32,196 nucleotides of DNA from a virus: the IMG/VR virus record IMGVR_UViG_3300037042_003190, positions 1 to 32,196 of that record; one strand, written 5' to 3'. Position 1 is the first letter of the stretch; every line of letters starts with the position of its first letter. Below are positions 7,670 through 32,196 of this stretch, one piece after another. Position numbers and translations under genes: made by a program. Under the pieces are notes generated by a model. The model was not told the DNA's origin and searched no databases. It saw nothing but the letters and a program-made list of their open reading frames with translations.

Positions 7670-7987
7670 GTGGCGGTCTCGGCAATCATTGGTGGCGTTA
7701 TGGCCGTGGCGTCGATCTACCAAGGGGAGACGGCGAGGCAGACCGCGAAGGCAGGGCAGCGCGCGCAGAGGGACGTGCAATCCCGCGCGGAGTCCAATGC
7801 TGCGGCCGAGCGAATCCGCGCCCAGCAGCAGGAAGCGAAGGTCCGACGCAAGACCCAGAACCTCGACGCGGGTCTCGACAACGCGATGGTCTCAGGTGCG
7901 CGAGGCGTGAAGTCTACAATGCTCACCGGTGGTGCGGGGCCAACTGCCGGCGGGAGCTACGCAACCCAGACCCTGCTCGGAGGCTGA
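7670..7987 (+). CDS. Small virion-type protein with N-terminal hydrophobic helix
   Basis: A 105-aa protein from GTG 7670 with a strong SD (GAGGAGG just upstream). The N-terminus, VSAIIGGVMAVASIYQG, is a hydrophobic helix; residues 20-70 are a charged Ala/Gln/Arg helix (AAAERIRAQQQEAKVRRKTQN); the tail is Gly-rich. The pattern resembles a miniature of gp14-like internal virion proteins (compare the gene at 19565), and similar small genes stand before portals in related phages. Function is inferred from shape and position only. Confidence 0.65.
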   Translation: MAVSAIIGGVMAVASIYQGETARQTAKAGQRAQRDVQSRAESNAAAERIRAQQQEAKVRRKTQNLDAGLDNAMVSGARGVKSTMLTGGAGPTAGGSYATQTLLGG

Positions 7988-7988
7988 C

Positions 7989-9722
7989 GTGCAGACCGCA
8001 AAGCTCAAAGACCAGGACAAGGGGGAGGTGCTGCGCTACTACCGAAAGCGCAACGAGGAGTTGAAGCGTCTACGCAGCAGCTATGACTCGCACTACCGCG
8101 ACCTCGGTGAGATGTTCGCCCCCCGCACTGGCCTGTGGGGCACGCGCATCGACACCAACCCAGGACGCAAGCGGCACGGCCAGATCCTAGAAGGCACGCC
8201 GGAGTGGTGCGTGACAGTCGCGGCGGCCGGCGTGATGTCGGGCGCGTCGTCACCGGCCCGGCCGTTCTTCAGACTCACCACGGCAGAGCCAGACCTCGCG
8301 CGGAAGTGGCGAGTGCAGAAGTGGCTGCAGGGCGCCACCGATCGAGTGCTGCGTGTGTTCCAGCGCTGCGGCTACTACGGCGCGCTGCCCCCGATCTACA
8401 CCGAAATGCTCGTCTACGGCACGGCCGCGACGACGATGATGCCGCACTGGAAGCGTGTGGTCTCGTTCATGCCGCTGACGTGCGGAACCTACGCCGTCCA
8501 GCAGAACGCCGACCGTGAGATGGTGGTCCTCTACCGGGAGTTCCAACTGAGCGTCGGGCAGTTGGTGAAGGAGTTTGGCCACGCCAACGTCTCGATGCGT
8601 GTGCGGGCAGCCTGTGAGGCTAAGAACATCGACCTGATGATCGATGTCGTCCACGCGATTGAGCCGCGGCACGACTACGACTCCACGCAGATGGACGACC
8701 TCAACATGAAGTGGTCGTCGTGCTACTTTGAGGTTGGCGGCGACGCCGACCGCGTGCTGCGCATGAGTGGGTTTCCCAACTTCCCGGCCCTCGTGCCGGT
8801 CTGGGCGAAGGTCGGGATGAACGTCTACGGGGACAGCCCCTGTATGCCGATCCTCGGCGACGCGCGGCAGCTTCAGCACCAGCAGAAGCGCAAGGCTCAA
8901 GCCATCGACTACAAGGTCCGGCCTTCGCTCGCGGTGTCCACATCACTGAAGAACCGCGATGTTGACCAGCTGCCCGGCGGCGTGACCCCGGTCCCCGACG
9001 GCGGGCAGGGCGGGATCCGCGCGGCTTGGATGGTGGACCTCGACCTCGGGGATCTCCGTGAGGACATGGAGACCACGCGACGACGCTTGTTTGAGGGCAC
9101 CTACGTGGACCTCTTCCGAATGCTGACGCGCGACGACGATCCGCAGCGCACCGCCTACGAGGTCAGCGTGCGACAGGAGAGTAAGATGGTCTCCCTCGGC
9201 CCGATGCTCAGCAACGTGCAGTCCGCGCTGCACGAGCCCGCGGTTGACTTCGTCTTCGCCCAGCTGATTGCGTCGGGGCAGATCCCCCCGCCTCCCGAGG
9301 AACTGCTCGGTGCCGATCTCGCGATTCAGTTTGTTTCAACGCTGGCCCAAGCCCAACGCATGGTCGGCACACTGCCAACCGATCGACTGATCGGTTCACT
9401 GCAGGCTGTCTCGACACTGAAGCCGGACGTGATCGACGGGTTCAACGCTGACGAATGGCTGCGCCGCTACTCGGACGACCTCGGTGTCGATCCTGAGTTG
9501 ATTGTGCCGGGGCCTCAGATCGCGCTCGTGCGCGATGCACGTATGCGTGCGGAGACCGCACGCGCGCAGAGCGAAGTGATTGCCGAGCAGGCGGGCGCCA
9601 CGCGCGACTTCGCGCAGGCCTCGGCGGCATTGCCGCAGACGGCCGGCTCCCAGGTGCCGCCGCCGGCTGATGTGATGGCCCAGCTGACGGGCTACGAGTC
9701 CCCATCTTCGCGAATGCTTTAA
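7989..9722 (+). CDS. Portal (head-to-tail connector) protein
   Basis: A 577-aa protein. GTG 7989 is preferred (SD GGAGG a few nt upstream); the extension to 7929 lies inside the preceding gene. It matches the podovirus head-tail connecting protein family: the N-terminal ELKRLRSSYDSHYRDLGEMFAPRTG with GTPEWCVTVAAAGVMSGASSPARPFFRLT, then a region ending YTEMLVYGTAAT, a clip/crown region with YGDSPCMPILGDARQLQHQQKRK, and the C-terminal helix region with RMVGTLPTDRLIGSLQ. It forms the dodecameric ring at one vertex through which TerL packages DNA and to which the adaptor attaches. Length is typical (T7 gp8 is about 536 aa). Its stop overlaps the next ATG by one base. Confidence 0.93.
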   Translation: MQTAKLKDQDKGEVLRYYRKRNEELKRLRSSYDSHYRDLGEMFAPRTGLWGTRIDTNPGRKRHGQILEGTPEWCVTVAAAGVMSGASSPARPFFRLTTAEPDLARKWRVQKWLQGATDRVLRVFQRCGYYGALPPIYTEMLVYGTAATTMMPHWKRVVSFMPLTCGTYAVQQNADREMVVLYREFQLSVGQLVKEFGHANVSMRVRAACEAKNIDLMIDVVHAIEPRHDYDSTQMDDLNMKWSSCYFEVGGDADRVLRMSGFPNFPALVPVWAKVGMNVYGDSPCMPILGDARQLQHQQKRKAQAIDYKVRPSLAVSTSLKNRDVDQLPGGVTPVPDGGQGGIRAAWMVDLDLGDLREDMETTRRRLFEGTYVDLFRMLTRDDDPQRTAYEVSVRQESKMVSLGPMLSNVQSALHEPAVDFVFAQLIASGQIPPPPEELLGADLAIQFVSTLAQAQRMVGTLPTDRLIGSLQAVSTLKPDVIDGFNADEWLRRYSDDLGVDPELIVPGPQIALVRDARMRAETARAQSEVIAEQAGATRDFAQASAALPQTAGSQVPPPADVMAQLTGYESPSSRML

Positions 9723-11770: not shown

Positions 11771-12778
11771 ATGGCTGTTCTCGCTGCAACCCACCCGACG
11801 CTCCTCGACGTGACCCGTCGCATGGACCCGAAGGGCAAAATCGACCAGATCGCTGAGATCCTCAACGCCGTCAATCCTCCACTAGAGGACGCGGTGTGGG
11901 TCGAAGGTAATTCGTTGCTCTCGCACCAGACGACGGTGCGCACGGGCATCCCCGACCCGACGTGGCGCAAGCTCTATGGCGGCGTGCAGCCGACCAAGAG
12001 CACCACGGCCCAGGTGAAGGAGTCCATCGGTGAGATGGTCGCCTACGCCGAGGTCGATGCGACGCTCGCCGAGATCAACGGCAACTCCAGCGAGTGGCGG
12101 TTGTCGGAAGAGCTCCCCCACATCGAGGGGTTCTCCCAAGACCTCACCGAAGCGGTGTTCTACGCGAACGAAGGTGTCACACCGGAGAAGTTCAACGGCC
12201 TGTCCGCGCGCTACAACACGGCCAACACCGCTCTCGCGGCGTCGGCGGAGAACGTGCTTTCCGCAGGTGGCTCGGCCAACCGGGGCTCGATCTGGCTGGT
12301 CGGCTGGTCGCCGCAGGGTATCGCGATGCTCTACCCGAAGGGCAGCACCGCAGGCCTCTACACCGAGGACAAGGGCAAGGTCACGGTCGAGAACGTGGAT
12401 GGCCTGAACGGCCGCGCCGAGATGTATCGCACCTACATGCGCTGGCGCGCCGGTGTGCTCGTCCGCGACTGGCGCTACGGGATCCGCATCGCCGCGATCG
12501 ACCGCTCGACGCTGACGAAGAACGCGGCGTCGGGTGCCGACCTGATTGACCTCATCACGTCGGCGGTCGAGTTGATCCCTAACGGGGGCTCGGCTCGCTG
12601 GACCTTCTATACGGATCGGAAGATCCGCACGTTCCTGCGCAAGCAGATCGCCAACAAGGTCGCGGGCTCGACCCTGACCATGGAGACTGTCGCAGGCAAG
12701 CCTGTGATGATGTTCGACGGCATCCCGTTCAAGCGGTGCGACGCGCTCTCAGTCGCGAACGAGGACGCCCTCGTCTGA
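11771..12778 (+). CDS. Major capsid protein, BPP-1 type
   Basis: A 335-aa protein. TLLDVTRRMDPKGKIDQIAEILNAVNPPLEDAVWVEGNSLLSHQTTVRTGIPDPTWRKLYGGVQPTKSTTAQVKESIG is almost motif-for-motif the N-terminal part of the capsid family seen in Bordetella phage BPP-1 and relatives (HK97 fold). Further support: VDATLAEINGNSSEWRLSEELPHIEGFSQDLTEAVFYAN, then VTPEKFNGLSARYN. It forms the icosahedral shell. Gene order (portal, Bbp19, scaffold, capsid, cement) agrees. It has no SD; the gene is preceded by a TAGTAA box and followed by an 8-bp hairpin. Confidence 0.93.
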   Translation: MAVLAATHPTLLDVTRRMDPKGKIDQIAEILNAVNPPLEDAVWVEGNSLLSHQTTVRTGIPDPTWRKLYGGVQPTKSTTAQVKESIGEMVAYAEVDATLAEINGNSSEWRLSEELPHIEGFSQDLTEAVFYANEGVTPEKFNGLSARYNTANTALAASAENVLSAGGSANRGSIWLVGWSPQGIAMLYPKGSTAGLYTEDKGKVTVENVDGLNGRAEMYRTYMRWRAGVLVRDWRYGIRIAAIDRSTLTKNAASGADLIDLITSAVELIPNGGSARWTFYTDRKIRTFLRKQIANKVAGSTLTMETVAGKPVMMFDGIPFKRCDALSVANEDALV

Positions 12779-14395: not shown

Positions 14396-16549
14396 ATGAC
14401 CGTCGAAATCTATCCCGACCTCTCCGGTGCAGGCGCGACAGACTACCTGTCGAAGCGGTTTACCGTGACGGTGAACGGCTCCCCGACATGGACCTTCGGC
14501 GTCGAGCGGACCCCAGTCGTGGGCGTCTGGGCCAGCTTGGGGGCGGCCACCGTCGAGCATAGTTGGGTCAAGATCGGCACGAACGAGGCTGTCACGTTCG
14601 TAGTGGTGCGCAAGCACCACGGCACCGGCGTGGTCATCCCCATCACCGCGTTTAGCGTCTCGTCGGCCAACGGGGCTGCCACTGCCGCAATTGTGGGGGG
14701 CGCACTAATCGTCAGTATGCCGGCCGACACGCGCGCCAAGATCGAAGTGAACGGTGAGCGTGGCAACATCCTCGCACTGTTCGCCGACCCGCTGAAGCCG
14801 GCGGTGCCGGCAGGGGCGGTGAACTGGGTTTCCCTCGGACGACCCACCACGCTCGCAGTGAATCAGAAGGTGTTCATTCCGGCCGGTGTCGTGGAGACGG
14901 TGCCGGGCGCGGTAAACAGCAACCGCGAGATCCGCATGGCCAACGGCGCCGAGGTCTACATCGAAGGCGGCGCGGTGCTGATCGGCAGTTTCAACTTCTC
15001 CAACGGGGGCCTGCCGGTGAACGGTGCGAAGGTCAGCGGGGCGGGTGTCGTGTCGGGCGCCTTCGTGGCCTACCCCTACGTGCAGGCCCTGCTGGTCTAC
15101 TCAATCCAGTTCACCTACGCGATCTTCCACACGGACTACGGGGTCTTCGGCTACTTCGACAACCGCGTCGAGGGTGTGACCACCACCCTCGCCCCGTTCT
15201 ACACGACGAGCAACGGTGTCTGTGAACTGACGCGCGCGCACCAGATCAACCCGTGGTGGCCCAACACTGACGGCACCGGCGGGATCGCGCCGAAGTCACT
15301 CGCGGAGCCGCGCTCGGACCTGACGAAGTGCTACCTGTTTGCGGGCGATGACTGCCTGCTACTCGACAAATCTGGTGTCACAGTCACCGTGACCGAGTGC
15401 CACCTCATCACCAGCAACGGGGGCTCGATCCATTTCGGCTACTACGCGATGGGGCTGAGCGCCCTCGGGACAACCGTCCAAGACTGCGCGCTGGAGAGCT
15501 TCAGTCCCGACTATATTCCCGGGTTCAACCCTGCGGGGGTAATCAAGTGGTGGTGCGACGGGCAGGAGGCCGACCGCTTCGACGGCCGCTACAATGTCAT
15601 CCTGCAGCGCATCCGCGTCTACGGCCCGCTCTACCAGCGGCTGTTCGCGCTGGTAAATGTAAAATACCCGATGGAAGTCTGGGGTGCGTCGAGCCAGGAG
15701 GCCGCGGGCTCGACGGCCAACTGGCTGATCGACGGCCTGTGGGTGGAGACGCTGCCCCCGGCGAAGAGCCTGATCTACGGGCGCGACCGGCGGAACACAC
15801 TTTCCAACTTAGCGTTCCGCGGCGTGCGGATCGCGGGAGAGCAGGTGTCGGTCTACAACTTCACCGACTACTTCGACCTGGAACAGCCGCTGTTCCAGAC
15901 GTGCTACCACCTCTTCGTCGAGGGCAAAGCGTTGACTACCTACACCGAACTCGCAAACCTCGCCCTCGGGCAGCTGGGGGACGTGCCGCGTGTGGTCTCG
16001 ATCTCCCCGCTCGACGGCTCCACGCAGGCGGACCTCTGCGCCACCATGATCCCGCAAGCGATCGAGTTGACCCTCGGGCGGCACGCGTGGTCCTTCGCGA
16101 CGCGCCGCTCGGACCTCGTCGAGGTTGTCGCTGGCGGGAACGACCAGTTCCCCTACTGCTACGAGATCCCCGGCGGGATGCAGCGACTGCTCGCGGTGTT
16201 GCCGCCTGGAGTCACCGACGTGGTGCAAGGGCTGCAGCCGGCGCGCTACGCCGTCGAGTCGAACGGCACGACACTGCGCATCTACACGGTGGACCCTGCC
16301 GCAACGGTCGTGTTCACGACCTACGACGTAGACACCAACGCGTGGCCGGCGGAGTTCAAGCAGGCCACGATTTACCGGCTCGCCTCGATGCTCGCCGGCC
16401 CGGTGCTCAAGGGGGAGACCGGTCGCCGCGTCGCGCGCGAACTGCTCCAGCTGGCGGAGTATGAGGTCGCACGCGGTGCGCCGCCGGACGCGAGTATGCG
16501 GCGCGCGCCGGTAGACCACACAATCGACTGGCTCGCGGGGCGTGAGTAA
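14396..16549 (+). CDS. Fusion: polygalacturonase/dextranase-like beta-helix plus tail tubular protein A (adaptor)
   Basis: A 717-aa protein from ATG 14396 (GGTAGGTG upstream). Residues 1-130 form a beta-sandwich-like segment (ITAFSVSSANGAATAAIVGG, RAKIEVNGERGNILALFADP) like the N-domain of GH49/GH28 enzymes. Residues 145-510 look like a right-handed beta-helix: FIPAGVV, GAEVYIEGGAVLIGSFNF, GAKVSGAGVVSG. NTDG (D292) and GDDC (D318, D319) recall the clan GH-N acidic residues. From about 513, LTTYTELANLALGQLGD, SQADLCATMIPQAIELTLGRHAWSFATRR and the C-terminal EYEVARGAPPDAS read as a gp11-like adaptor, about 205 aa (T7 gp11 is 196). It would ring the portal and carry a polysaccharide-degrading enzyme. 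The substrate is unknown. An internal TTG at 15932 with GAGGG 7 nt upstream could give a free adaptor. Confidence 0.88.
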   Translation: MTVEIYPDLSGAGATDYLSKRFTVTVNGSPTWTFGVERTPVVGVWASLGAATVEHSWVKIGTNEAVTFVVVRKHHGTGVVIPITAFSVSSANGAATAAIVGGALIVSMPADTRAKIEVNGERGNILALFADPLKPAVPAGAVNWVSLGRPTTLAVNQKVFIPAGVVETVPGAVNSNREIRMANGAEVYIEGGAVLIGSFNFSNGGLPVNGAKVSGAGVVSGAFVAYPYVQALLVYSIQFTYAIFHTDYGVFGYFDNRVEGVTTTLAPFYTTSNGVCELTRAHQINPWWPNTDGTGGIAPKSLAEPRSDLTKCYLFAGDDCLLLDKSGVTVTVTECHLITSNGGSIHFGYYAMGLSALGTTVQDCALESFSPDYIPGFNPAGVIKWWCDGQEADRFDGRYNVILQRIRVYGPLYQRLFALVNVKYPMEVWGASSQEAAGSTANWLIDGLWVETLPPAKSLIYGRDRRNTLSNLAFRGVRIAGEQVSVYNFTDYFDLEQPLFQTCYHLFVEGKALTTYTELANLALGQLGDVPRVVSISPLDGSTQADLCATMIPQAIELTLGRHAWSFATRRSDLVEVVAGGNDQFPYCYEIPGGMQRLLAVLPPGVTDVVQGLQPARYAVESNGTTLRIYTVDPAATVVFTTYDVDTNAWPAEFKQATIYRLASMLAGPVLKGETGRRVARELLQLAEYEVARGAPPDASMRRAPVDHTIDWLAGRE

Positions 16550-19500
16550 TGGCCACTACGCGCCGGTTCCAGCGGTCGCTGATCGGGGGCGAGGTCACGC
16601 CGAAACTGCACGGGCAGATCGACCTCCCCTACTATCAGAATGGGGCGCGTAAGCTGCTAAACGCTGTGGTCGAGCCTATCGGGCCGGCAAGTCGTCGGCA
16701 GGGGTTCAGGTTCCAGCGGGTGGCCAAAACGAAGTTTCGCGCGGTCCCATTCCGCTACGGCCCCACCAACAACGCGATGGCGGAGTTCGGGGATGGCTAC
16801 GTGTGCATCCACACCCTCGCGGGCGTGCTGCTCTACGGATCACCTTCCGCATACAAGCTGCCGGAGACCTTCGTTCCGGGCAACGTCGCAATCAACCCGA
16901 CGAACCGCATCACCCTCACGGCTCACCCGTTCGACCCGAGCGAGCCGGTGCGATTCAGCACTGACAACACCCTCCCGGTGGGCCTCTCCGCAGGCATCAC
17001 CTACTACGTGCTGGTAGTGGACGCGAACACCATCCAGGTCAGCACCACCCCCGCCGGCCCCGCGGTCACGATTTTCACGGGGGGTGTCGGCAACCATCGG
17101 TGCGTGCGGTTCTACGACACGGGCGACCTCACCACGTTCGGGGGCTCGGCTTACTACAGCACGCAGCCGAACCCCGCCGGCAACGTGGTCGAGACCGCCC
17201 CCGGTGTAAATGCCTTCTGGCACCTCCAACCGGCAACCGGTGAACTGGAGATTCCGACCACCTACACCGCGGCGCAGATCGGCACGCTGGACTACGTGCA
17301 GAGCTTCGACGTGCTAACAATCGCGCACGTCGCGCACCCGATGCGGGAGCTCCGACGATACTCGGCAACGCGGTGGGCGTTTGTTGAAGTGCCGCGGGGG
17401 CCGTCGCTGGCGGCACCGACAGGCGTGTCCGCAGCACGCACCTACGGCTTTGAGGTGCTGGTGAAATGCAGCAACGCCTCCCCTGGGGTGCTCTCGACTT
17501 TCGACGTTATCGGGACGCAAGCCCCGATTCCGCGTGTCCCATTTGGTGAATACACCTGTGTGCTCCTGCGACAGCACACGGGGAGCGATATGGCGAATAT
17601 CACGCCGGGCTTCTACCTCGCGGCCAACATCAGTCCGAGTGCGGGCACCTTCAACCTCATGTCGCTGGCTGGGAAGATGCAGGTGGGCGTCACCTACACC
17701 TCGCCGCAGGATTACGGCTACGTCACACCGCTGAGCTACCCGAGCGACTTCATCGAGACCTACGTGGTTACCACGGTGGACGCGAACGGCTCTGAGTCAG
17801 CCCCCTCGGTGGAGGCGACTGCTGACAACGACCTAGCCCAGCAGGGCAACTTCAACACCATTCAGTGGTCAGCTGTAGTGGGGGCCAGCAGCTACCGCAT
17901 CTACAGGAAGTTCGCCGGCGTGTTTGCTTACGTGACCGAGACCACGGCGCTGACCTGGAAGGATGACGGCTCCGATGAGCCTGACGGGTCGCGCACCGCA
18001 CCGCGCATCGACACCACCCTGCTGACCAATAACCCCGCGGCAGTGGGATACTATGAGCAGCGCCGCATCGCGGCCGGTCTGAGTGGGCTGCCCCAGACGG
18101 TGCTCTTCACCCGGTCCAACACCGAGTCGGACTGGGTCTATCACCTGCCGGTGCAGGACTCCGACCGCCTGTCGTTCCGCGTCGGCGCCCGCGAAGCCTG
18201 CACCGTCCAGTATGTGCTCCCGCTGGCGCAGCTAGTCGTGTTGACGGACTCGACCGAGTTCCGCGTCACGCCTCTGAACGACGACGCCTTGACCCCCGCC
18301 TCGGTGTCCACGCGCCCGCAGACCTACGTCGGGGCTGCGAAGGTGCGGCCCCTCCTCGCGTCGGGCACCGCACTCTTCATCGCGGCGCGCGACAAGCACG
18401 TCCGCGAGCTTGGCTGGAGCGCCGAGGCTTCAAGCTACGTCACCGGGGATCTATCGCTGCGGGCGCTGCACCTGTTCGACGGCTTCTCAATCCTCGACGC
18501 AGCGTTCGTTCGCGCCCCGTGGCCAATCGCATGGTTTCCGTCAAGCTCAGGCAAGCTGCTGTCGCTCACCTACGTGCCCGAGGAGCGTGTGGGCGCGTGG
18601 GCGCAGCACACCACGCAGGGATCCATCACGTCGGTCGCGGCCCTGCCCGAGGCTGATGGCGACCACCTTTGGGCTTGTGCGCAGCGGGTAGTTAATGGGG
18701 CGACGGTCCACTACGTCGAGCGGATGCCCCCGGCCCCGACGCTGACGACGGCCATTGAGGCGCAACTACTCGACGCGCACCTGACGTTCGACGGGCGCAA
18801 CACCGGCGCCACGACGTTGACCGCGGCCTACGGTGGGCTAGCCCTCAACCCGTTGGGCGCCGCCTACACCTCGTTTGTCGTAACGGCCTCGTCCGCCACG
18901 TTTGCCGTGGGGGACGTTGGGGCGTCGCTCATCTTCTACGGCTCCAAGAGATACCCGCACGAGTTGGTCATCACGCAGTTCACCAGCGCGGTGCAAGTGG
19001 TCGCCTACCAGAGGGGGACGTTCCCGCAGGCCTATGTGGCGGTGCCCGTCACGACGTGGGCCTTCGCCCGCGCGACGTTCACCGCGGCGCACCTAAAGGG
19101 TATGACGATCGAGGCCCTCGGCGACGGTGTCGCCTACTCCGGCATCTTGGTCAATGCCTCGACCGGCGTGTTCACGCTACCGAAGGCGGCGGCCGTCGCC
19201 TGCGTGGGTCTCGGCTACATCACTGACATCGAGCCGCTGCCGCTGACGATCGGGATCCCGGGCGAGAGCCTAGGCTCCCCGAAGGCTGTCGATCGCGCGC
19301 GCATCAGCGTGGCATCGTCGGGGGTCTTTGAATTGGGGCCCGACGCCGCACGCCTCAAGCTCATCGACCCCGCGGTGTTGGAGGAGGCCCCAGAGTTCTC
19401 ATTTGACCCAGTGCCGGACCAGCCCACCGGGCTCGGCACGGCTGTCGTAGACCTCGCGACAGTGCCAAAGTGGAGCGCTGACGGTAGGCTACTCGTGAGA

Positions 19501-19563
19501 CAAAGCCGCCCCCTCCCACTCACTGTCCTAGGGATCGGGGTCGAGGTTGTAATCGGAGACTGA
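16549..19563 (+). CDS. Tail nozzle protein (tail tubular protein B-like)
   Basis: A 1004-aa protein; ATG overlaps the previous stop (TAATG). The N-terminus, FQRSLIGGEVTPKLHGQIDLPYYQNGARKLLNAVVEPIGPASRRQGFRFQ, is the signature of podovirus gp12-like nozzles ('F..GelsP.l.gR.Dl..Y.nG...l.N....p.GgasRRpGt.f'), followed by VPFRYGPTNNAMAEFGDGYVCIHT. Residues about 400-490 read like a fibronectin-III domain (VTTVDANGSESAPS, IQWSAVVGASSYRIYRKFAG). The C-terminal half is strand-rich beta-propeller type. It forms the hexameric tail tube below the adaptor and gates DNA. It is longer than T7 gp12 (about 794 aa), mainly because of inserted beta domains. Confidence 0.9.
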   Translation: MATTRRFQRSLIGGEVTPKLHGQIDLPYYQNGARKLLNAVVEPIGPASRRQGFRFQRVAKTKFRAVPFRYGPTNNAMAEFGDGYVCIHTLAGVLLYGSPSAYKLPETFVPGNVAINPTNRITLTAHPFDPSEPVRFSTDNTLPVGLSAGITYYVLVVDANTIQVSTTPAGPAVTIFTGGVGNHRCVRFYDTGDLTTFGGSAYYSTQPNPAGNVVETAPGVNAFWHLQPATGELEIPTTYTAAQIGTLDYVQSFDVLTIAHVAHPMRELRRYSATRWAFVEVPRGPSLAAPTGVSAARTYGFEVLVKCSNASPGVLSTFDVIGTQAPIPRVPFGEYTCVLLRQHTGSDMANITPGFYLAANISPSAGTFNLMSLAGKMQVGVTYTSPQDYGYVTPLSYPSDFIETYVVTTVDANGSESAPSVEATADNDLAQQGNFNTIQWSAVVGASSYRIYRKFAGVFAYVTETTALTWKDDGSDEPDGSRTAPRIDTTLLTNNPAAVGYYEQRRIAAGLSGLPQTVLFTRSNTESDWVYHLPVQDSDRLSFRVGAREACTVQYVLPLAQLVVLTDSTEFRVTPLNDDALTPASVSTRPQTYVGAAKVRPLLASGTALFIAARDKHVRELGWSAEASSYVTGDLSLRALHLFDGFSILDAAFVRAPWPIAWFPSSSGKLLSLTYVPEERVGAWAQHTTQGSITSVAALPEADGDHLWACAQRVVNGATVHYVERMPPAPTLTTAIEAQLLDAHLTFDGRNTGATTLTAAYGGLALNPLGAAYTSFVVTASSATFAVGDVGASLIFYGSKRYPHELVITQFTSAVQVVAYQRGTFPQAYVAVPVTTWAFARATFTAAHLKGMTIEALGDGVAYSGILVNASTGVFTLPKAAAVACVGLGYITDIEPLPLTIGIPGESLGSPKAVDRARISVASSGVFELGPDAARLKLIDPAVLEEAPEFSFDPVPDQPTGLGTAVVDLATVPKWSADGRLLVRQSRPLPLTVLGIGVEVVIGD

Positions 19564-20203: not shown

Positions 20204-22627
20204 ATGGCCCCACGCGTCACCCCGTCCACCACCCAAGACCCCCGCCCGATGCCGGGGCTCTCGGCACCGGAAGTAACACCGCAACGCTCGGCGACGGCGG
20301 ACCAGTTGTCGCAGGCCGGCGTCGGGCTCATGCGCGCGGGCATCGGCGTGTCGTTCGTCGCCGCGAGGGCGAAGGCCGATTACGACGAGGGGCGTGTGTC
20401 CGAACTGGAGACCCGCTACGCCGATGGCGCCTACAACGCCCTCCGCGGCGACCGCGGCTACCTCAACCTCGTGGGCTCGCCAGCGGCGGATCCAGCAAAG
20501 CGCACCGAGTATCTGGCAGGCCTCGACCGTGCCGCGGAGACGCTGATCGACGCGACCGACAGCCCCGAGCAGCGGCAGGCTCTGACTGCACGCCTGCACG
20601 CGCGGGGGATGCGCGCGCGTGAACTGATCGACTCCCACCACTACGACCAGAGCCGGGTGTTTGCGATCGGGCAGGAGGCCGGCCGTATCAGCCGCGCGCA
20701 GACCGACTACGTCGCCAACTTCGACAGCGCCAACCCAGCCGTGGCGCGCGATGACTACAACCGCGCCGTTGCGTCAACGACCCGTTTCGCGGAGATGAAG
20801 GGGCTGCCGGTCGAGGACGCTGTTGCCGGGGTCAAGGCGGCAATGCACGCCGGGATGCTCGATCGGTTGATCCGCGAGGAGCGTGTCGATGAGGCCCAGG
20901 CCTACTACCGCGACAACCGCGGCGGCCTCGACGCTGATGCGCGCGGCAAGATCGAGGGTGTGCTGGGCGAGGCATCGGCGCGGAAGCGCGGCACCGATCT
21001 CGCGTTTGAGTTTGAGGCCCAGAACCTGTCGCCGCTCGACCAGCTAGCCAAGCTCGACTCGATGCGTGGCGGCACCGGCACCGGCGCCGGCCCCGCGCTG
21101 CCGAATACGCTGACTGATCGCGAATACCGGAAGGCCCTCGCTGCGGTGATTGATAGGCAGCAAGTCAAGGCGGAGCTTGCGGCTCGCGAGACCGTCTCCT
21201 TCCAGGCTGATGTCTTCGGGCGCCTCGACGCCAATCGGCAGGCTGCGCTAAGCGGCCAGGGCAGCACACCGGGGGTGCCCGCCGCGCTGCTCGACGTGGA
21301 GAGTCTGCTGTCCCCGACAGAGACCGAACGCGCGCGCCGGCTCGGCGTGCTCGACAACCTGCGCACCTACGCCGAGCACGGCCGGTTTGGTGACGTGCCG
21401 GGCGGACGCGAAGCCGCGGCGCGGTTGATGCAGGACGGCATCATGCGCGAGCTCTCGTGGGAGCAGATCCACGCTCGCGTGCGCCCCTGGGTCAGTGACT
21501 CAACGATGTCGGACCTGTTCCAGGGTTGGAACAAGGCGCGTGGCACGCGCGCGCCGAACCCCGACGCGAAGGGCGACTGGGAGAGCGACCGCGCGTTTGT
21601 CAACACCGAGACCGATCGAATGCTGAAGTTCCTGCCGGCGGACGCTCAGGCCGGTAGGTTCAGCGAGCAGGCCGGTGAGCGGGCTGCGTTTGACTTCCGC
21701 CGCGACGAAGTCTTCACGATGGTGAAAGATCGTTTCTTGAAGGTCCGCGAGAAGGACACCACGACGCCCGAGCGCGACCTCGTGCGGCAGATTGTGTCGG
21801 CGTTCGTCGAGGAGAAGCTGCAGGCTGCCGGCGGGGGGTCACCCTCCGACAAGGTCAACGCCGCGGGTGCCACGATTTTCGCATTCACCAACGCCGAGAA
21901 CGTCAACAGCTTTCAGGTCGTCGAGGCCGGTGTTGCCGTGCCGCTGTCGGAGCTTGCTGACCCGGCGACGATGCGCATGGCGCGCGGACACGCGCTCGCT
22001 GCGGCGGCGCAGGAGCGCCTTGAGGCGGAGAAGTGGAAGCCTCAGGATCCCACTGCCACGCTCGACCGCCGCTATGTCGAACACATGGCCCGCGCCGATC
22101 GCTACGAGGCGGCGGCCAACGAAAACAACCTGAACCTGCCGACGCTCGCGAGGGTGCTCGCGAGCGTGCGCGCGATCGAGGGCCCTCAGCGGGCACTAAA
22201 GGCGAAAGCCGATGAGGAGATGCCCTCATTAGTCAAGAGCTTGGAAGCGAGGGCCCAGGCCGAGGAGCAGGCGACCGTCACACAGATGATGCAGCGGGGG
22301 GCCAAGTTCGGCGAGGTCGCGCGCTACGTCTACGAGACCCGCTACGGGTGGGAGCCGAACGGACTCCCCTACGAGGCGGAGAGGCTGCGCCTGATTCGGC
22401 AGGATCTATGGGCCACATTCCCTGAGGCGGGCCTACCAGCCCGGCTCTACCAGATCGGCGAAGGGGATAGCTACCAGCCGCCCGCGAGGCCCCCTTACAG
22501 CCTACCCGCATACCCGTCGGTCGAAGACCGCGACCGCTTCTGGCAGACTGCGCCGTTTGTGCGCGGGGATTCGGACGCCGCGCGGCAGCGTGATGCCGCG
22601 GCCGAGCGTAGGATGCGCTGGCGATGA
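20204..22627 (+). CDS. Internal virion (ejection) protein, gp15-like
   Basis: An 807-aa protein from ATG 20204 (T7 gp15 is 747 aa). After a Pro-rich start it is almost entirely alpha-helical: LSQAGVGLMRAGIGVSFVAARAKADYDEGRVSELETRYADGAYNAL, then many repeats of the kind LIREERVDEAQAYYRDNRGGLDADARGKIEGVLGE, which recall gp15-type proteins that build the ejected trans-envelope tube. No lytic transglycosylase motif, zincin or membrane span is visible. Its place between gp14-like and giant gp16-like genes fixes the assignment. The stop overlaps the next start by 4 nt (ATGA). Confidence 0.82.
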   Translation: MAPRVTPSTTQDPRPMPGLSAPEVTPQRSATADQLSQAGVGLMRAGIGVSFVAARAKADYDEGRVSELETRYADGAYNALRGDRGYLNLVGSPAADPAKRTEYLAGLDRAAETLIDATDSPEQRQALTARLHARGMRARELIDSHHYDQSRVFAIGQEAGRISRAQTDYVANFDSANPAVARDDYNRAVASTTRFAEMKGLPVEDAVAGVKAAMHAGMLDRLIREERVDEAQAYYRDNRGGLDADARGKIEGVLGEASARKRGTDLAFEFEAQNLSPLDQLAKLDSMRGGTGTGAGPALPNTLTDREYRKALAAVIDRQQVKAELAARETVSFQADVFGRLDANRQAALSGQGSTPGVPAALLDVESLLSPTETERARRLGVLDNLRTYAEHGRFGDVPGGREAAARLMQDGIMRELSWEQIHARVRPWVSDSTMSDLFQGWNKARGTRAPNPDAKGDWESDRAFVNTETDRMLKFLPADAQAGRFSEQAGERAAFDFRRDEVFTMVKDRFLKVREKDTTTPERDLVRQIVSAFVEEKLQAAGGGSPSDKVNAAGATIFAFTNAENVNSFQVVEAGVAVPLSELADPATMRMARGHALAAAAQERLEAEKWKPQDPTATLDRRYVEHMARADRYEAAANENNLNLPTLARVLASVRAIEGPQRALKAKADEEMPSLVKSLEARAQAEEQATVTQMMQRGAKFGEVARYVYETRYGWEPNGLPYEAERLRLIRQDLWATFPEAGLPARLYQIGEGDSYQPPARPPYSLPAYPSVEDRDRFWQTAPFVRGDSDAARQRDAAAERRMRWR

Positions 22628-25600
22628 CATCGAACGACCTACCGCTTCCGCCGCTGGAGCCGAGCCTCCCGCAGAACCCTATCCAGCCGGTGTCGATCCC
22701 CATGCCGGAGCCGGTGCTGCCGGCGACGGACAGCCCGATGGCGCGCGTCGTCCGCGAGCAGGCGGCCGCCGAGACCGACCACTCCCGCGCGGTCATGCGC
22801 GAGTCGGTCAGCCTCGACCCGTCCGCATACCGCCGGGCCATGGAGGTCTCGACGCGTGCGGGCGTGGATCTGCAGACCGCTCTCGACCGGCCGGACACCA
22901 TCTCTCAGTGGGAGCAGGCGCGCGCCACCGACCTGGACGCCCTCGTCGAGCGGACGCCAATCCTCGCCGGGTGGGCGCAGAGCTATCCACGATCGGTGGC
23001 TACGGCCGACGACCTGGAGGCCCTCGCCGGGGTCGAGCGCAGCTTCGTGGATTGGGTGAGTGCCAACTGGGAAGTGGGCACGCTCATCAACGAGCAGGGC
23101 CGCCTCGGCGCACTGCTTGGCGCAGGCTGGGCGTCTGACGTGGATCTCCAACGCCTCGACGAAGTCAAGCGTCGCCTGCAGGGGGCACCGCGGGACACCG
23201 GCCTCAGCTACGGGGTGGGCAGCGCCTTGGAGTTGGCGGGCCAATGGGTAGATCAGCTATGGCGCTCTGCAGTAGGTGGCGCCCCGACCGCTCTCGTAGG
23301 CGCCGCGGCGGCCGGCCCCGCCGGTGCGGTTGCCGGCTTCGGTGTCGGGTTCCTCTCGACGCAGGTGGCGCAGTCAATGGTCACCGAGGGTGGCAACGCT
23401 TACCTGGAATACCTCGACGCCGGCTACGAACCGGGCGACGCCGCGCGCGCGGCCTTCGGTGTCGGTGTCGCCAACGGGGCACTGGAAGCCATCGGTCTGA
23501 AATACGCGACCATGCCCGCACGCAAGCTCGGCGCGATGGCATCCCGCAAGATCGCGGGCACGCGTCTCCTGCAGCGGGCCGCCGCCGCCGCCGTCGTGAC
23601 CACCACCGCCAAGAAGGTATTCGCCGATGTGATCGGTGATCTCGTGAAGAGTGTGGCCGCGGAGACCGTCACCGAGATGACGCAGGAATCGGTGACGCTG
23701 GCCGGCCAGAGTCTGCTGCGCTCATACACGCGGCCAGAGTTGGCCGGGATGCTCTCGACGGTCGAGGGGCGGGCGGAGGTCTACACGCGCCTCGCCGACA
23801 TCGTCACGAAGACCATGAGCGGCACGCTGCTGCTCGGCCTGCCCACATCGGGCCTACGCCTGCACTACGACGCGAAGCGCGCCGAGAAGGGCGCGCAGGC
23901 GCCGCGGTTCTTTGAGAACCTCAGCCGAGGTGCCGTGCCATCGAAGGTGGCCCAGGATTCGCCGGGGCTGTTCGCCCAGTTCGTGCAGGATGTGACGGGG
24001 GACACCGTGCCCGAGGTGTTCGTCGATGTGCGCCAATTCCGCGAAGTCGTCGAGACGGCCGAGAAGGCGCGCAAGAAGGCGGGCTCTATTTCGCAGACGG
24101 TGCAGGAGACCGTTAACGCGCTCCTTGGCGGGCTGTGGGACGCCTCCGAGAAGATCCCCGGCACGGCCGCGGACCAGGATGTCGTGATCCCGACTGGCGA
24201 GTTCCAGAAGATCGCCGACACCGCGCTAGGCCGCGCATTGATGCCGCACCTGCGTCTCGATCGCGACTCGATCTCAGTGGCCGAGGAGGCCCGCTACTCA
24301 CCGGAGATGCGCGTCTACGCCGCCGAGGCGCGCAAGATCCTGGCTAAGGATGAGGAGACCCGCGGCACCCTACGCAAGGAGCTCCGCGCGGTCCACGACC
24401 GTGTTGCGGGAGAGCTAAAGGCCCAAGGTCGCGAGGCGTCCGAGGTGCGTGCGTTTGCGTGGATGCACGCGGCCTGGGTCACTACGCAGTCTCGGCGCAT
24501 GGGCATGACCCCCGCGCAGTTCGACGCCCGGTTTGGCGCCGGGGTTGGTGTGGACACCGGGGCTGGTGCGCCCGGGGGCGCCGATATCGCAGGCGCACTG
24601 GCGCAGGGCGTGCAGCCCTACGAGGCCACCGAGGGCGCCGCCAACGAGGACGCGATGGCCCACCTCCTAGCACCCCCGGGGCTCAGCCCCCTGATCGGGG
24701 CGGAGCAGGGCACACTGCCGCCCGACGGGATTGGCACTCTGACCGGCAGCACCGGCAGCACCCGGCTGGTGCTCTCGCGTGAAGGTAAGCCAGTGGCTGC
24801 GCTCCAAGTCATGGCTCGCGAAGGTTCGCCCCCGGCAATCGCCAACATCTACACCGACCCCACGGTGCGGCGGCAAGGTCTCGCGTCGCAGTTGGTGGAG
24901 GCGGCGCGCGCGCAATTCCCGGGCGCGGAGCCAGTGTCGTTGACGGATGCGGGCGCCGGCCTGTTCAACTCGATCGCGACCGAAGCAGCGGGTGAGAGCA
25001 CTGACCAGAGCTCTCGCGCGCCCGACGCGCCCGCGCCCGACGCGCCCACGCCCGACGCGCCCACGCCCGACGCACCCACGCCGGACGCGTTGGCCCCTTC
25101 CGATGCGGAGATCGATGCTGCGCTCGACTCGATCGACTACGAGAGCGTCAACGCCCTCGCGCGCGCCACGGATGGCAAGGTCCGCGTGCGCGCCTTCAAG
25201 GTCATCCTGCAAGAGCGTCACGCGCGGGCGACGGCCAAGCTGGGCATCAACCTCAAGCGGGACTCCGCTGCGCGCCGCGCGTTCCTGGCGCGCGTCATCT
25301 ACCGCGATGCCCTCTATGCCCTGAAGCAGAACCCGAACGCGATCGGGTGGTATGACGAAAAGACCACTGAGGCTCTCGCGCTGGTCGCGCTGCTGCACCC
25401 CGAGATCGCGACCGACGAGACCTCCCGGCTGGCGTTCGTGTTTGCGCTCGCGGTGATGAGCAACGGGCAGAAGGTCAACAAGAACTTCGACCTCGCGGAG
25501 CAGTGCTACCGCGGGTGGAAGGCCACCGGGAAGATGCCGGAGAACGTCGGCATCGGTAAGCCGGCCCGCGCGATGAACGCTGCGATGGTGTTGTGGAACC

Positions 25601-28600
25601 AGCTGGTGCCGCGGTGGGGGCCCGAGCGCTTGCTTAAGGTGTTCCTGGCGCAGGCGCCCGCGAATGTCATTGCGAAGATCACCGGCACCGAGGTGAAGGA
25701 CGAACTGGTCACCACGGTCGTGCGCGGCGCCGCGTCGATCGGGCCGAAGATCGGCAACGGCTTCTTTTCCAACCTCTACGGGATCTTCTCGGCCCTGACG
25801 ATGGACCGCTGGCTGGTGCGGAGTTGGGGCCGGTGGCTCGGCATCCTCATCACAGAGCGGCCGGACATGGTTGCGGAGAAGACGCTAGAGATGCAGGCGC
25901 TGCTGCTCTCCTTGACTGACGGGGAGCGCACGGGGATTGAGGCCTTGGTTGGTGTTAGCTTGATGGCCGACTCCGTGGTGGCGGCGGCGGAAGCGATCAG
26001 CAAGTTTTCCGAGAAAGCTGAGCGGCGCGCAGCCCTGATTGCGCTGCCGCGGGGGAACGCCATCCGCAAGCTGTCCAACAACCTCGCCGGGTGGATCGAC
26101 GGGCAGAAAGAAGACCCTAGCAACGGGAACGAGCGCAATGAGATTCGCGCAGCATTCCAAGAGGTTCTGCTCCGACTGCGTGCCGATCACCCCGCCTACG
26201 CCAAGCTGGAGATGGCGGATCTGCAGGCGGTCCTGTGGTATGGCGAGCGGCTGATTTATGAGACCGCGGGGAGGTTCGTGCAGAAGAACCCCAACGCGGA
26301 CGGCGACGCTGACGGCGACGGCTACGACGACGACGAAGCCCCCGACTACGCAAACGCCGCCGCGCTGCTGGTGGTTGCGCGCAAGGTAACCCAGCGTAGA
26401 GTAGATAACCTAAGGAAGAGACTCACAGATGACCGACAACAAAAGCGTGCAGCAGAACAGTCCAGAGTATCCGCCCAACATGACGGGGCAGGAGAAGCAG
26501 GACGAGGCCCTGATCGAACGCCTCAACCAGCCGGCGACGGCCCAAGAAGTGGATTCACTCCTCCCCAGTTCGCCCTTTTCATCAATGCCGAACTTGCCCG
26601 GCAGGCTCGGGCCGCGGGTCATGCAGGACGCCGAGGCGGCAATGCTCAGGTACCACCCCGGGGCTACGTTAGAGCATCTGGCGGAGGAGGCAAAAGCTCA
26701 CGGATTCTAACGGGCCTGCTGCGAGGCGCGCGCACGTTCGGGCGGTTCAAGGCCAGCGAGGCCCTGGGGGATGCTTACTCGCTGGGATCTAACGCGACCC
26801 CCGACTTCTACGAGATGGACCCCCGCGACCCGGCGACGGCCGCGAAGTTCCACGCGTTGATCTCGGCCGCGAAGCAGGCGAACAAGTTTGGCTCGTCGGC
26901 CTACGTCTACGACGTTGCCGACTACGGGGCCATGCGGGTCTTCTTGTCGGCCTCGGGGCAGAGTGGGTTTGGGCTGAAGCCCGACGGCGACCTTGTCTCA
27001 GTGTTCAGCACCGAGGGCGCCGGGCACGCAGCTACAGCGCTCGGTGTCCAGATGGGCGCGACGAAGGCCGACGCTTTCGACACCGTGCTGCCCCTCATCT
27101 ACGCAGCCCACGGGTTTAGGGTGGTGTCCCGCGTTGCGTGGAACGACGGGAGGAAGCCGTCAGATTGGGACTACTCAACCTACTCCGAATACAAGGACGG
27201 GCGACCCGACGTGGTCTACCTAGTCCACGACCCTGACTGGTTTGGCTACACTGAGACCACCGATGGCGGCCGCGCACTGCCACCCACCAACTGGGAGACC
27301 GCGGTGCGCCGCCAGAAGCGGGCACTTAACGAGATCAACCGCCGAGGAGCCGACCGCGATGCACGACCCAACCCACAGCAGCCTACCGCAGAACCCGGGC
27401 CCCTCTCGCAACTCTCGCAACTCGGCGGCCGACGCTATCGAGGCGTGGCTGGCCGAGCAGGTGAGGCTCGCTACGGAGATGCGCGGCCGGGTGCGGTCAG
27501 CGTTCGGGGCATCCACTTCTCTCGCGAGCCCCGCGGATCCCTCGACGCAGGATCCTACGGGTCCGGCCCCCGAGGCGCCGAGGGCCAGCGGGTCGCCGGA
27601 GATGCCACCCTCAGCGCCCGCGCCTACTTCTACGTAGACGAAGGGAGCGGGGTCAGCCCTGAGGTAGGGGTCGGTGAAGAGGTCCATGAGGTCACGCTCG
27701 ACAACGTCTACGACGCGAAGGCGGACCCGCTCGGTGTCATCGCGAAGTGGCGCAACAGTGACGCGCCGACCGCGAACAGCATGGAGCAGGCGATCCACGC
27801 CGCCGGCTTCGACGGCTACTACGTGCCCGGCGTGCAGGGCGACCAAGGCGTCGCCGTCATCATCGGCCCAGAGCACTCGACAATCCCGGTAGACCACGTC
27901 GGGCCGATGTCGGAAGTCAGCGGCCCCGACCTACTGGAAGCGAAGCGTGGTGGTGGTGCGGGCACTGGGGGTGGTAGTCGCCGGCCCACACCACCGACGA
28001 CGCCGCCGGCACAGCCGACCTCGCCGGCACAGCCGACATCGCCGGCACAACCGGCGCCGCCAAACCGCCGAGGTGCCTACGACTGGCGTGGGCGCAGGGT
28101 GCTCCTCAACGCGCAGTCGGACGCGAGCAGCTGGGTCCACGAGCTCGCCCATCACTTCCTTTTCGCATTGGAGGAGATGACGGGGATGCCGGGCGCACCG
28201 CAGGATCTCGTCGATGACTTCGACGTGCTGCTGCGTTGGTTCGGCGTGAAGGACCGGGCGGCGTGGAATGCCATGACGCTCGACGCCAAAGTCCGATACC
28301 ACGAGCAGTTCACCTACTCTTACGAGCTACACGTCTGGGAAGGCCGCACTCCTGCGCTCAGCTTGCAGAAGCTGTTCGCCCGGTTTGGCGCGTGGCTCCG
28401 CACGGTCTACCGCGGCACGCAGGAAGAAGCGCGCGCACGCGTCAACTCGCTCTATATGCAGGTGGAGGGGGTGACGAGCCCGCTGCCCCCGATGAACGAC
28501 GAGGTGCGCGCGGTGTTCGACAAGATGCTCGCGTCCGAGGACGCCGGCCGGCACGCCACCGCCGCCTACAGCGCGGTGGCCCTGTTCACTACGCGCGACG

Positions 28601-31600
28601 AGTTCCTCGCCGGGGGTGGGACGGCGGCGCAGTGGGACGAGTATGAGGCCGCACGCCAACTCGCCGATGACATGGCAATCGAGACGTTCGTGGCGCAGGG
28701 CGCGCGGGCGTTGACGTGGATGCGTGGACACCGAGGTGGGGTGTCGCGCCGGATCAAGAACGTCGTGAGGGGGCTACGGGAGAAGCTGCGCACCGAGGCC
28801 GAGGCCGAGATCGACAACACCCTCGTTGAGGAGATCCGGCAGGCAATGTCGCAGCCGGGCATGAAGCTGCGTCGCGACTCGCTGCGTGGGTCGCTCCCCG
28901 GCGGCCGGTCACAAGAAGAGATCGAGGCATTCGCGCGCCGCTGGAGCAGCGACGGTGGTATCGACGTGGCTATCCTCGCCGGCCGTTACGGGCTGGAGCC
29001 CGAGGCCCTGCTTGAGATGCTGCTCGACGCTCCGTCACGCGATGACGCGGTTGATGCCGCCCTCGATCGCATGATGCTGGACCGGCACTCCGACCTCGCC
29101 ACCCCCGAGGGCGTCGAGCGCGCTGTCGATCGCGCTCTGCAGGGCGAGGTCCGGCAACGGATCACGCAGTCCGAGATCCACCTGCTCGCTACGACCGGGA
29201 TGCCGGGCCGTGTGGTGCAGGCAGCGCTGACGCTTGCCGTCGAGCAGACGCTCGACACTCGCACGGTTGGCACCCTGCGGCGCCCGCACGCGTTCTTAAT
29301 CGCAGCCCAGCGCGCCTCGCGTGAGAGCCGGCAGCACCTTGCCGAAGGCAACCCGGCGAATGCGCTGCGGGCCAAGCGGGTGCAGATGCTCAACGAGAAG
29401 CTGGGCATCGCCGCGCGCTACGCAATCGAGGAGATCGACGGCTTCCTCGGGAAGCTCTCGGGGTTCTTCGCACCGGACCTCCGCATCGCCAAGTCGCGCG
29501 CGATGCCTTACGTCTACGCGCTGCGCTCGATCCTCGCAGAATACCAGTTCGGGCGCGACCGCCGCTCGCGTGAGGAGTGGCGCGCCCGCGCGGCCGAAGG
29601 CCTCGCCCAGCTGCAGACGGTTGACCCACTGGCCTTCGTTGAGGTGCAAGCGGTGATGGCAGACCTCCGCGGCCGAGTGAGCCCGCGCGACTTCCGTCAG
29701 CTGACGCTGGCGGAGTTTCGCACGGTGATGCGCGCCGTCGAGAGCCTATGGCACCGCGGCAAGCAGGCCCGCACTGCAGTGGTCAACGGCCGGCGCCTCG
29801 ACATCGAGGATGTGGCGATCGAGTTGGGTGAGGACGTGCGCCGGGCAACGCTTCGGCGGAAGCTCCCGCCCATCGACCCGGTCAAGGCTCGCGACGCTCT
29901 CCGTTCCGCGAACAAACTCGGTGGCCTGCGAGCTCTCGCGCGTCGAGCCGAGTCGTTCTTCGATCTGCTCGGGCCGGCGTGGACCTCGCTGTTCTTCCGC
30001 CCCGTGCAGGACGCTCTCGACATCTACCGTGTCAAGCGTAGCCACTACGTCAAGCGGCTGGAGGCCCTGATCGCTGGGCTAGGCCAGCAGCGCCCCGGTG
30101 TGATCCCCTGCTCTGCGACGATCGGCTACACGTTCGGGAGCGGCAACGGTGGTCACGGGATGGTCGAACTGCTGCACGCACTCCTGCACAGCGGCAACGC
30201 GTCGAACTTCGCGAAGCTGCTCGTCGGCCGCCGGTGGACCGACATGGGCGCCGCCTTCGACCAGGACGGCAATCTCAACACCGACCGCTGGGATGCGATG
30301 CTGATCGACCTCCGCGAGCGGGGCATCCTGAAGCGTGAGCACTACGAGTTTGTGCAGGCTGTCTGGGATCTCACCGAGGAACTGAAGGGCCACGCGCAGG
30401 CGGCGCACTACGAGCTATTCGGCGTGCCGTTCGACGAGGTCAAGCCGGCGCCGGTGAATACCCCGTTCGGCACCTACCGAGGTGGCTACGTGCCGGCGAC
30501 GCTCGACCGCGAGCTCGTGCCGTTGGCGGACATGCACGCGCAGCTGGAGAAGGTTCAGGAGAGCGTGCAGTTCTTGATGCCGACGGTGGGCCGCGGCTTC
30601 ACGATGGCCCGCATCGAGGACTACCGGGCACCCCTCGCGCTCGACATTCGGCTGCTGGCGCGGCACATCGATCAGGTGATCCGCTTCTCCTACGTGCAGC
30701 CCGCAGTAACCCAGGCAATGCGCGTGTTGCGCAACGCCGACGTGGCCGGCGCACTGGAGAGCTACGCGCCCGGCTCAGCGGTGGATCTCGTGATCCCGTT
30801 CCTGTCGCGTGCAGCGCGGCAGTCTGCCTCGGCACCGGGGTTGTCCGATGAGGTTGATGCCTTCTGGTCTGTGGTGCGGCGGCGCGTCGGCATGAATGCG
30901 ATGTTCGGCAACCTGCGCAACGCACTGCAGCAGATCACCGGCCTGTTCCCGGCAATGTTGAAGGTGCCGCCGCGCTACCTCATGGGCGGCCTGATGCGCA
31001 CCGCGCTCCGGCCGTCGGCCATCGCGCGGGTCTCCGCAGCTAGCAGGTTTATGGCCACCCGCCTATCTGGTCAGGTCATGGACGTGACCGGCGTGGTCGA
31101 GCAGTTGATGCTGAACCCGAGCCCGCTCGCGAAGGTGAGCCGCTGGGTGCGTGAGCATGGCTACTTTCTGCAGACCTACACACAGCACATCGTCGATCTC
31201 GCAACGTGGGACGGCGCCTACGAGTGGGCCAGCCACCGGGGCCTGAGCCCCGAGGACGCGGTCGCTGAGGCGGACGCCGCGGTGCGTCTGACTCAGGGCA
31301 CTACGGACCCCGAACACAAAGCGAAGTTTGAGACGGGGACACCGGGCTACCAGACGCTCGTGCAGTTTCAGGGCTACTTCAACATGCTGGCCAACCTGCT
31401 CGGCACTGAGTTCCCGAAGGCTATGCGGTCGGCCGGGGCTGGGCGGAACGCGCGCCTGTTCTCGGTGTGGGCCCTCGGGTTTGCCGCGCCAATGCTGGTG
31501 GCCGACGCGATTGCGCGCGCGGCATCGGGCAGCTTCGACGATGATGACGACGACGGCTATTCGGACGAGGCCGCTGACTGGTTCTTTGGTGGGCTTGGCC

Positions 31601-31965: not shown

Positions 31966-31977
31966 CCGCACCCTAGG

Positions 31978-32196
31978 TCAGCTTGGCCCATCGAGAAGGT
32001 ATGGGATGGGGCCAGACGGGACGTGGCGTGGTGCCAAGCCCGTTGGATCGTTGCCGTAGAACGCTAGCCTGATGTCGGCTTCGCTCATGCGAATGCTGTT
32101 CAAATAGCGATCGGGGTTCGCGCGGATCTTCGCGCCCAACTCGGCGCGAAGCCGCTCGTTCTCCTCCCGAGCGCGCCTGTTGCGGCGGATCGTCTT
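31978..32196 (-). CDS. C-terminal part of a minus-strand gene, function unknown
   Basis: Read on the minus strand from the window edge, 72 codons are open before TGA at 31978-31980. The visible protein starts with a basic coiled-coil-like helix (RRNRRAREENERLRAELGAKI), continues RANPDRYLNSIRMSEADIRLAFYGNDP and ends PIPYLLDGPS. The mixed composition and sensible codon use support coding. It converges on the giant gene with only 12 nt between stops, so a new, oppositely transcribed module begins here. No family is recognised. Confidence 0.6.
   Translation of the reverse strand, partial: KTIRRNRRAREENERLRAELGAKIRANPDRYLNSIRMSEADIRLAFYGNDPTGLAPRHVPSGPIPYLLDGPS

Follow-up and report, generated by a model that had tools for sequence, protein, structure and literature searches.

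A single gene in a podophage genome fragment encodes one chain in which an N-terminal domain resembling glycan hydrolases (residues ~1-512) is joined to a complete podophage head-tail adaptor (residues ~513-717). The window, that is, the whole stretch of DNA analysed, is an entire IMG/VR virus record of 32,196 bases. The gene product is best explained as a head-tail adaptor with a covalent N-terminal glycan hydrolase that replaces the tailspike. This reading is likely; its enzymatic activity and virion position are inferred, with neither activity data nor a virion structure available. The fusion observation itself is confirmed and is broader than first stated, other putative virion glycan enzymes also being fused to head-tail adaptors, with catalysis, display at the neck and dual expression remaining inferences. 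The fused gene comprises the following features.

14396..16549, + strand: fused gene for a GH-N-like beta-helix and a head-tail adaptor, 717 aa (open frame, continuous codon-position GC, Shine-Dalgarno-like AGGTGA).
14396..14815, + strand: N-terminal beta-sandwich, residues ~1-140, a putative GH49-type Ig-like domain with approximate boundaries (AlphaFold strands, pLDDT mostly 64-86 at 61-132; weak PF17433 match in one homologue).
14816..15931, + strand: predicted beta-helix domain, residues ~141-512 (Foldseek and hhalign).
15263..15274, + strand: NTDG motif, N290-G293, with candidate catalytic D292.
15344..15352, + strand: GDD motif, G317-D318-D319, a candidate catalytic Asp pair.
15545..15553, + strand: K384-x-W386, a possible remnant of the GH28 RIK.
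15920..15934, + strand: GAGGG (15920-15924) and TTG (15932-15934), the native start site of the adaptor inside the fusion.
15932..16549, + strand: head-tail adaptor domain, residues 513-717, with the stop codon (PHROG 394, alignment to lone adaptors, Foldseek).

The frame runs uninterrupted from the ATG at 14396 to the stop ending at 16549, and the AGGTGA lies directly 5' of that ATG. Third-codon-position GC stays at 0.76-0.96 over the entire fused ORF without a dip at the junction, where the sole nearby stop is a TGA at 15933 in a frame open for only 40 codons. Three separate metagenome assemblies contain a fusion of the same kind, that of the homologue L007 (100-99.15% nucleotide identity), and L137 constitutes a second distinct homologue with the same junction.

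The C-terminal half is an adaptor of a known family. Residues 514-716 match PHROG 394 ('tail protein') at 1.7e-22 over profile positions 2-188 of 190, and this half aligns end to end, at 29-35% identity, with the lone adaptors of BPP-1, Caulobacter phage Jess A and freshwater phages. With a profile of these lone adaptors, the solved Carin1 connector is matched at 5.7e-27. Foldseek likewise pairs the adaptor half with the Carin1 connector (8ck1_E, 9.8e-10, TM by target 0.73) and with T7 gp11 (8.6e-4), in addition to LME-1 and KP32 TTPA. The gene is preceded by that of the major capsid protein and directly followed by that of the nozzle. By full-length profile, fold and gene position, this half meets the criteria for a PHROG 394/T7 gp11-like adaptor; its assembly into a dodecamer on the portal is inferred.

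Residues 1-512 give no match above threshold in Pfam, PHROG or NCBIfam. The N-terminal domain has no Pfam family even at E 10, the GH49 catalytic profile PF03718 finds no match in the record at E 10, sequence and profile searches against solved structures return nothing related, and no relatives were found in named phages or GTDB genomes. Weak plasmid matches were mostly to GH28 (E 0.003-3), a lead only, later tested by hhalign. A profile of the three homologous N-domains aligned with five GH28 enzymes at 95.6% (1.2e-8), placing NTDG on NTDG and GDD on GDD, and an esterase profile used as a control scored a probability of 0.1%. The predicted fold matches the GH49 isopullulanase 3wwg in Foldseek (1.7e-8, probability 1.00), with a TM by query of just 0.30. 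The AlphaFold model has a mean pLDDT of 63.5 and a pTM of 0.46, its beta-helix part being of low confidence in places; a model of the L007 domain (pLDDT 41.0) was left out of the evidence. One homologue also touches PF17433 (Glyco_hydro_49N), weakly, at 0.019. Because fold, hhalign and PF17433 agree on clan GH-N while curated matches and the GH28 His and Arg are absent, the domain is clan GH-N-like yet outside GH28 and GH49 as curated.

The three beta-helix homologues (window, L007 and L137) share just 29-39% identity. Across them N290, D292, G293, G317, D318, D319, K384 and W386 are invariant. The GH28 His (GHG) and the Arg of RIK are not conserved in the three-homologue alignment; the Lys is kept, and the equivalence of K384-x-W386 with RIK is inferred.

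Searches of IMG/VR, together with five named phages, gave 124 distinct adaptors. A long N-terminal extension is present in 23 and lacking in the other 101, making the lone adaptor the norm. Besides the window, beta-helix domains are found in two distinct homologues, L007 and L137, both adaptor-fused. In the other twenty extended adaptors, the equivalent position is taken by an SGNH/SASA esterase-like domain. Six of them were scanned and all exceeded the SASA cut-off (PF03629); L143, whose domain is cut by the contig end, was assigned by motif only, and the remaining esterase fusions were recognized by the esterase profile or by motifs belonging to it. The esterase domain of L049 has no match among 50,697 named phage records. 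A subclade of the esterase adaptors (L014, L105, L108, L110, L111, L112 and L130) retains QGExD but reads GQNQ or GQNN at the catalytic serine motif GQSN, and its domain may therefore be a binding module only.

The esterase profile search further revealed this domain at the N-termini of three unrelated kinds of connector protein: the PHROG 477/DnaT_2 'head-tail adaptor Ad1' (L094, L095, L096, L099-L103, L119 and L124), gpW-like connectors (L104, L125 and others) and an unnamed ~160-aa protein (L113 and L118). Among these, L099 is siphophage-like, having tail-terminator and tape-measure neighbours. Further records with the esterase on connectors other than PHROG 394 are L126-L129. BFVD holds two long adaptor-fold proteins without a name in the tables consulted (A0A516LTA4, 1084 aa; A0A516LMG1, 761 aa), so proteins of this sort have been deposited, though they apparently remain undescribed. 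The reverse order seems to occur in PHROG 9239 (Vibrio phage VP2 Q6RCF4, ~741 aa), with the adaptor at the N-terminus and an Ig-like extension following it. The open-access literature searched, which leaves out most subscription papers, yielded no description of an enzyme joined to an adaptor.

A sequence-only reading had described one uninterrupted frame running from a clan GH-N-like beta-helix with acidic motifs into a complete gp11-like adaptor, a protein said to be normally lone and about 200 aa long. The frame held (open frame, GC, PHROG 394, fold and hhalign), as did the gp11-like identity (PHROG 394 and Foldseek to T7 gp11), the lone norm (101 of 124 distinct adaptors without a long extension) and the clan-level likeness with its acidic motifs. 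Membership of GH28 or GH49 was not met, as the His and Arg are not conserved and no curated match exists. The same reading had proposed matching each half by profile and structure and looking for the fusion in other phages: the adaptor half was matched, the N-terminal half is GH-N-like by fold and hhalign and not by curated profile, and the fusion was found in L007 and L137. It had noticed neither the start site retained at the junction nor the esterase fusions that parallel the beta-helix ones.

The window follows the gene order of BPP-1/epsilon15-type podophages: portal, GP7 major capsid protein, adaptor, nozzle, lysozyme-like protein and giant protein. The window is a genome fragment, the contig ending 231 nt past the giant protein.

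7929..9722, + strand: portal protein (PF12236, 2.4e-128).
11771..12778, + strand: major capsid protein, GP7 family (PF20911, 1.4e-109).
16549..19563, + strand: nozzle-like tail protein, 1004 aa (PHROG 376, 1.4e-129 over its full length).
22624..31965, + strand: giant virion protein, 3113 aa (PHROG 9880, 4.7e-250), after which the spike gene comes next in unfused relatives.
31966..32196, + strand: contig end, without a + strand spike start (three-frame reading and motif search).

Some further observations concern this setting. Three small genes between the portal and capsid genes (9722-10703) resemble a lysis cassette, with a membrane segment and a lipoprotein signal recognized by eye only. On the - strand, a frame at 31973-32196 that is open to the contig end resembles a real protein C-terminus, and a convergent gene may come after the giant protein. 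Residues ~121-216 of the nozzle-like protein are matched a second time, ahead of the adaptor, in L139, L165, L080 and L075, in the manner of a mobile domain. Nozzles tend to be long in fused phages, at 985-1413 aa among those seen.

Fused phages and their unfused relatives differ in the presence of a separate spike gene. All 11 unfused relatives with sequence past the giant protein have a large gene next, starting like MTISSTTRKAGPF; it lies 52-78 nt downstream of the giant protein in ten of them and 697 nt downstream in one. Of the products of this gene, four were scanned and two are pectate-lyase-like beta-helix spikes. Among contigs of at least 28 kb, a spike-anchor profile (A10), made from the first 120 residues of these proteins, detects the anchor in all 19 unfused ones and in none of the 17 fused PHROG 394-type ones, which include the window and several near copies; four unfused fragments shorter than 28 kb were also negative for the anchor. 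Eight fused contigs have no ORF of at least 180 aa in the spike's place after the giant protein. In the window there is no spike start in the 231 nt that follow the giant protein, and the A10 profile, which represents the tailspike docking domain, is absent from the whole record.

This correlation is given without a P value because fused adaptors cluster and several contigs are near copies. In the adaptor tree the fused rows fall together, a single origin remains possible, and a very long branch leads to the window; given this clustering, the absence of the spike in fused phages could represent a single evolutionary exchange. The lack of a fibre or spike gene in the window, which the sequence-only reading had put forward, is no proof alone and was rejected as a stand-alone argument, since the contig ends so soon after the giant protein; the contig comparison was used instead and supports the absence. 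Separately, the beta-helix relative G003 encodes a 1037-aa tail protein (L195:8945-12055, - strand; PHROG 4271, 1.9e-65) between its portal and capsid genes. Its role is unknown, and G003 is the only relative among those fetched to have it.

The junction of the beta-helix fusions retains a start site. At the position of the lone-adaptor ATG, the window has TTG and both L007 and L137 have GTG, in the same layout, and GTCGAGGG precedes each. A start codon with such a site occupies this position in 87 of 101 unfused adaptors, and most esterase fusions have a glycine codon there. Each beta-helix-fused ORF contains just three in-frame start codons with such a site, one of which is the native adaptor start in all three. 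TTG makes up 9% of Leu codons in the window, and the FVEG peptide encoded at the junction is conserved in all three beta-helix fusions. The kept site may be a relic or an active internal start giving free adaptor. Two products are therefore conceivable, an inference drawn from sequence alone.

In the mechanism proposed, about twelve adaptor domains would form a ring beneath the portal, with the enzyme domain hanging outside this ring, near the T7-type fibre docking site between adaptor and nozzle. There it would hydrolyse capsule, slime or O-antigen polysaccharide by an Asp-based mechanism, doing the job of a tailspike. Among the beta-helix fusions, free adaptor may also arise from the kept start site, yielding a mixed ring with fewer than twelve enzymes. 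The neck site is plausible because the N-terminal domain of the R4C adaptor lies at the periphery (PMC10276861) and the fibres of T7 attach where adaptor meets nozzle (PMC6702177). A ring-like display at the portal-nozzle junction, already suggested by the sequence-only reading, is inferred only. GH28 and GH49 enzymes act as monomers, and covalent fusion thus suits an enzyme of this type better than it would a trimeric spike. Against this explanation stand the low-confidence beta-helix model, the TM of 0.30, the missing GH28 His and Arg, the clustering of fused adaptors, the fragmentary window and the extra tail protein of G003.

Two rival explanations concern the junction. An assembly or sequencing error near 15930 could have joined two adjacent genes: the TTG at 15932 shares letters with an out-of-frame TGA (TTGA), as in a usual stop/start overlap, and the case rests without read mapping. 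However, codon-position GC is continuous through the junction, beta-helix homology reaches FVEG at the junction in the homologues, and the same junction occurs in L007, L087, L088 and L137, which come from separate assemblies. This recurrence nearly refutes an artefact, and an assembly join was rejected on recurrence and codon-position GC together, leaving almost no room for it. The other rival accepts the fusion and holds that the TTG/GTG site is a mere relic, or reflects selection on FVEG, so that the full-length fusion is the sole product. All three homologues conserve FVEG, GAG-GGN codons yield GAGGG by themselves, and the esterase fusions, mostly without a start codon there, still work as fusions. 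On the other side, each ORF has only three sited in-frame starts, one of them exactly the native adaptor start in three of three homologues, and TTG accounts for 9% of Leu codons. The balance tips slightly towards the relic.

The other rivals concern the role of the N-terminal domain. The beta-helix might be a glycan-binding module that anchors the phage to a surface sugar without cutting it, which the missing GH28 histidine and arginine would allow; asparagine stands in for the catalytic serine in a subclade of the parallel esterase fusions, where catalysis is therefore dispensable. This is nevertheless improbable for the beta-helix, in which three acidic residues and K384 are invariant despite 29-39% identity; the GH28 histidine, moreover, is not needed by GH49-type enzymes. 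Less probable still is an internal role, whereby the enzyme domain is not displayed and instead acts in assembly or DNA ejection, or is cut off, with another protein meeting the host surface. Such a role draws on the merely inferred virion position of the domain, on the long nozzles of fused phages, whose insertions (or an unseen gene) could meet the surface, and on the extra large tail protein in G003. It is opposed by the location of adaptors outside the capsid, with the extra N-terminal domain peripheral in R4C (PMC10276861), by the suitability of the enzyme types (glycosidase, acetylesterase) for surface glycans, and by the missing spike in fused contigs. A displayed, glycan-cleaving domain remains the preferred reading.

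Short-tailed phages are thought to meet surface glycans via fibres or spikes that are separate proteins, anchored where adaptor meets nozzle; in the window, the enzyme would sit on the docking ring itself. The fusion suggests a different route for a phage through the bacterial sugar coat and offers a testable claim on the evolutionary rebuilding of receptor-binding machinery. It also points to a class of glycan-active virion enzymes overlooked by annotation, as its members are filed as tail proteins or left unnamed. Since the same esterase occurs on unrelated connector proteins, the neck is perhaps a general attachment point for such enzymes. A bolder joint reading, no more than a possibility, is that neck-borne glycan enzymes form a general convergent alternative to the tailspike, with hydrolases and esterases on the N-termini of unrelated connectors; that in the podophage clade they replaced the spike gene, with a swap of enzyme type; and that, among the beta-helix fusions, a single gene yields adaptor with and without the enzyme, setting the number of enzymes per ring.

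In comparison with known systems, the C-terminal 205 residues are like the PHROG 394 adaptors T7 gp11, KP32 TTPA and BPP-1 Bbp14 in sequence, predicted fold and gene position. Those adaptors are lone proteins of ~200-220 aa, whereas the window protein has 512 enzyme-like beta-helix residues in front. KP32 TTPA, which had been invoked as a functional precedent, is a weak analogue: its reported activity is attributed to the adaptor alone, with no glycosidase domain attached (PMC5440376), and has no bearing on the N-terminal domain of the window. With the clan GH-N families GH49 (isopullulanase, dextranase) and GH28 (polygalacturonase), this domain shares an acidic triad in NxDG/GDD and, as far as its low-confidence predicted fold goes, a beta-sandwich followed by a beta-helix; unlike them, it lacks a curated match and a conserved GH28 His and Arg, and is fused to an adaptor. 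Podophage tailspike depolymerases, such as the pectate-lyase-like spikes of the unfused relatives, are also virion-borne beta-helices presumed to act on surface glycans. Tailspikes are trimeric. They are separate proteins with an N-terminal docking domain, whereas the enzyme of the window belongs to the adaptor chain and has no docking domain.

Extra domains at the phage neck have been described elsewhere. The head-tail adaptor of roseophage R4C bears an N-terminal Ig-like attachment domain at the ring periphery (PMC10276861) and resembles the window protein in having an additional N-terminal domain; it differs in that this domain is Ig-like and presumed structural, and in that the adaptor is that of a siphophage. 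The neck passage structure proteins of Lactococcus phages place carbohydrate-binding or pectin-lyase-like domains at the neck (PMC10684548). These are separate neck appendage proteins, whereas in the window the domain is part of the adaptor itself.
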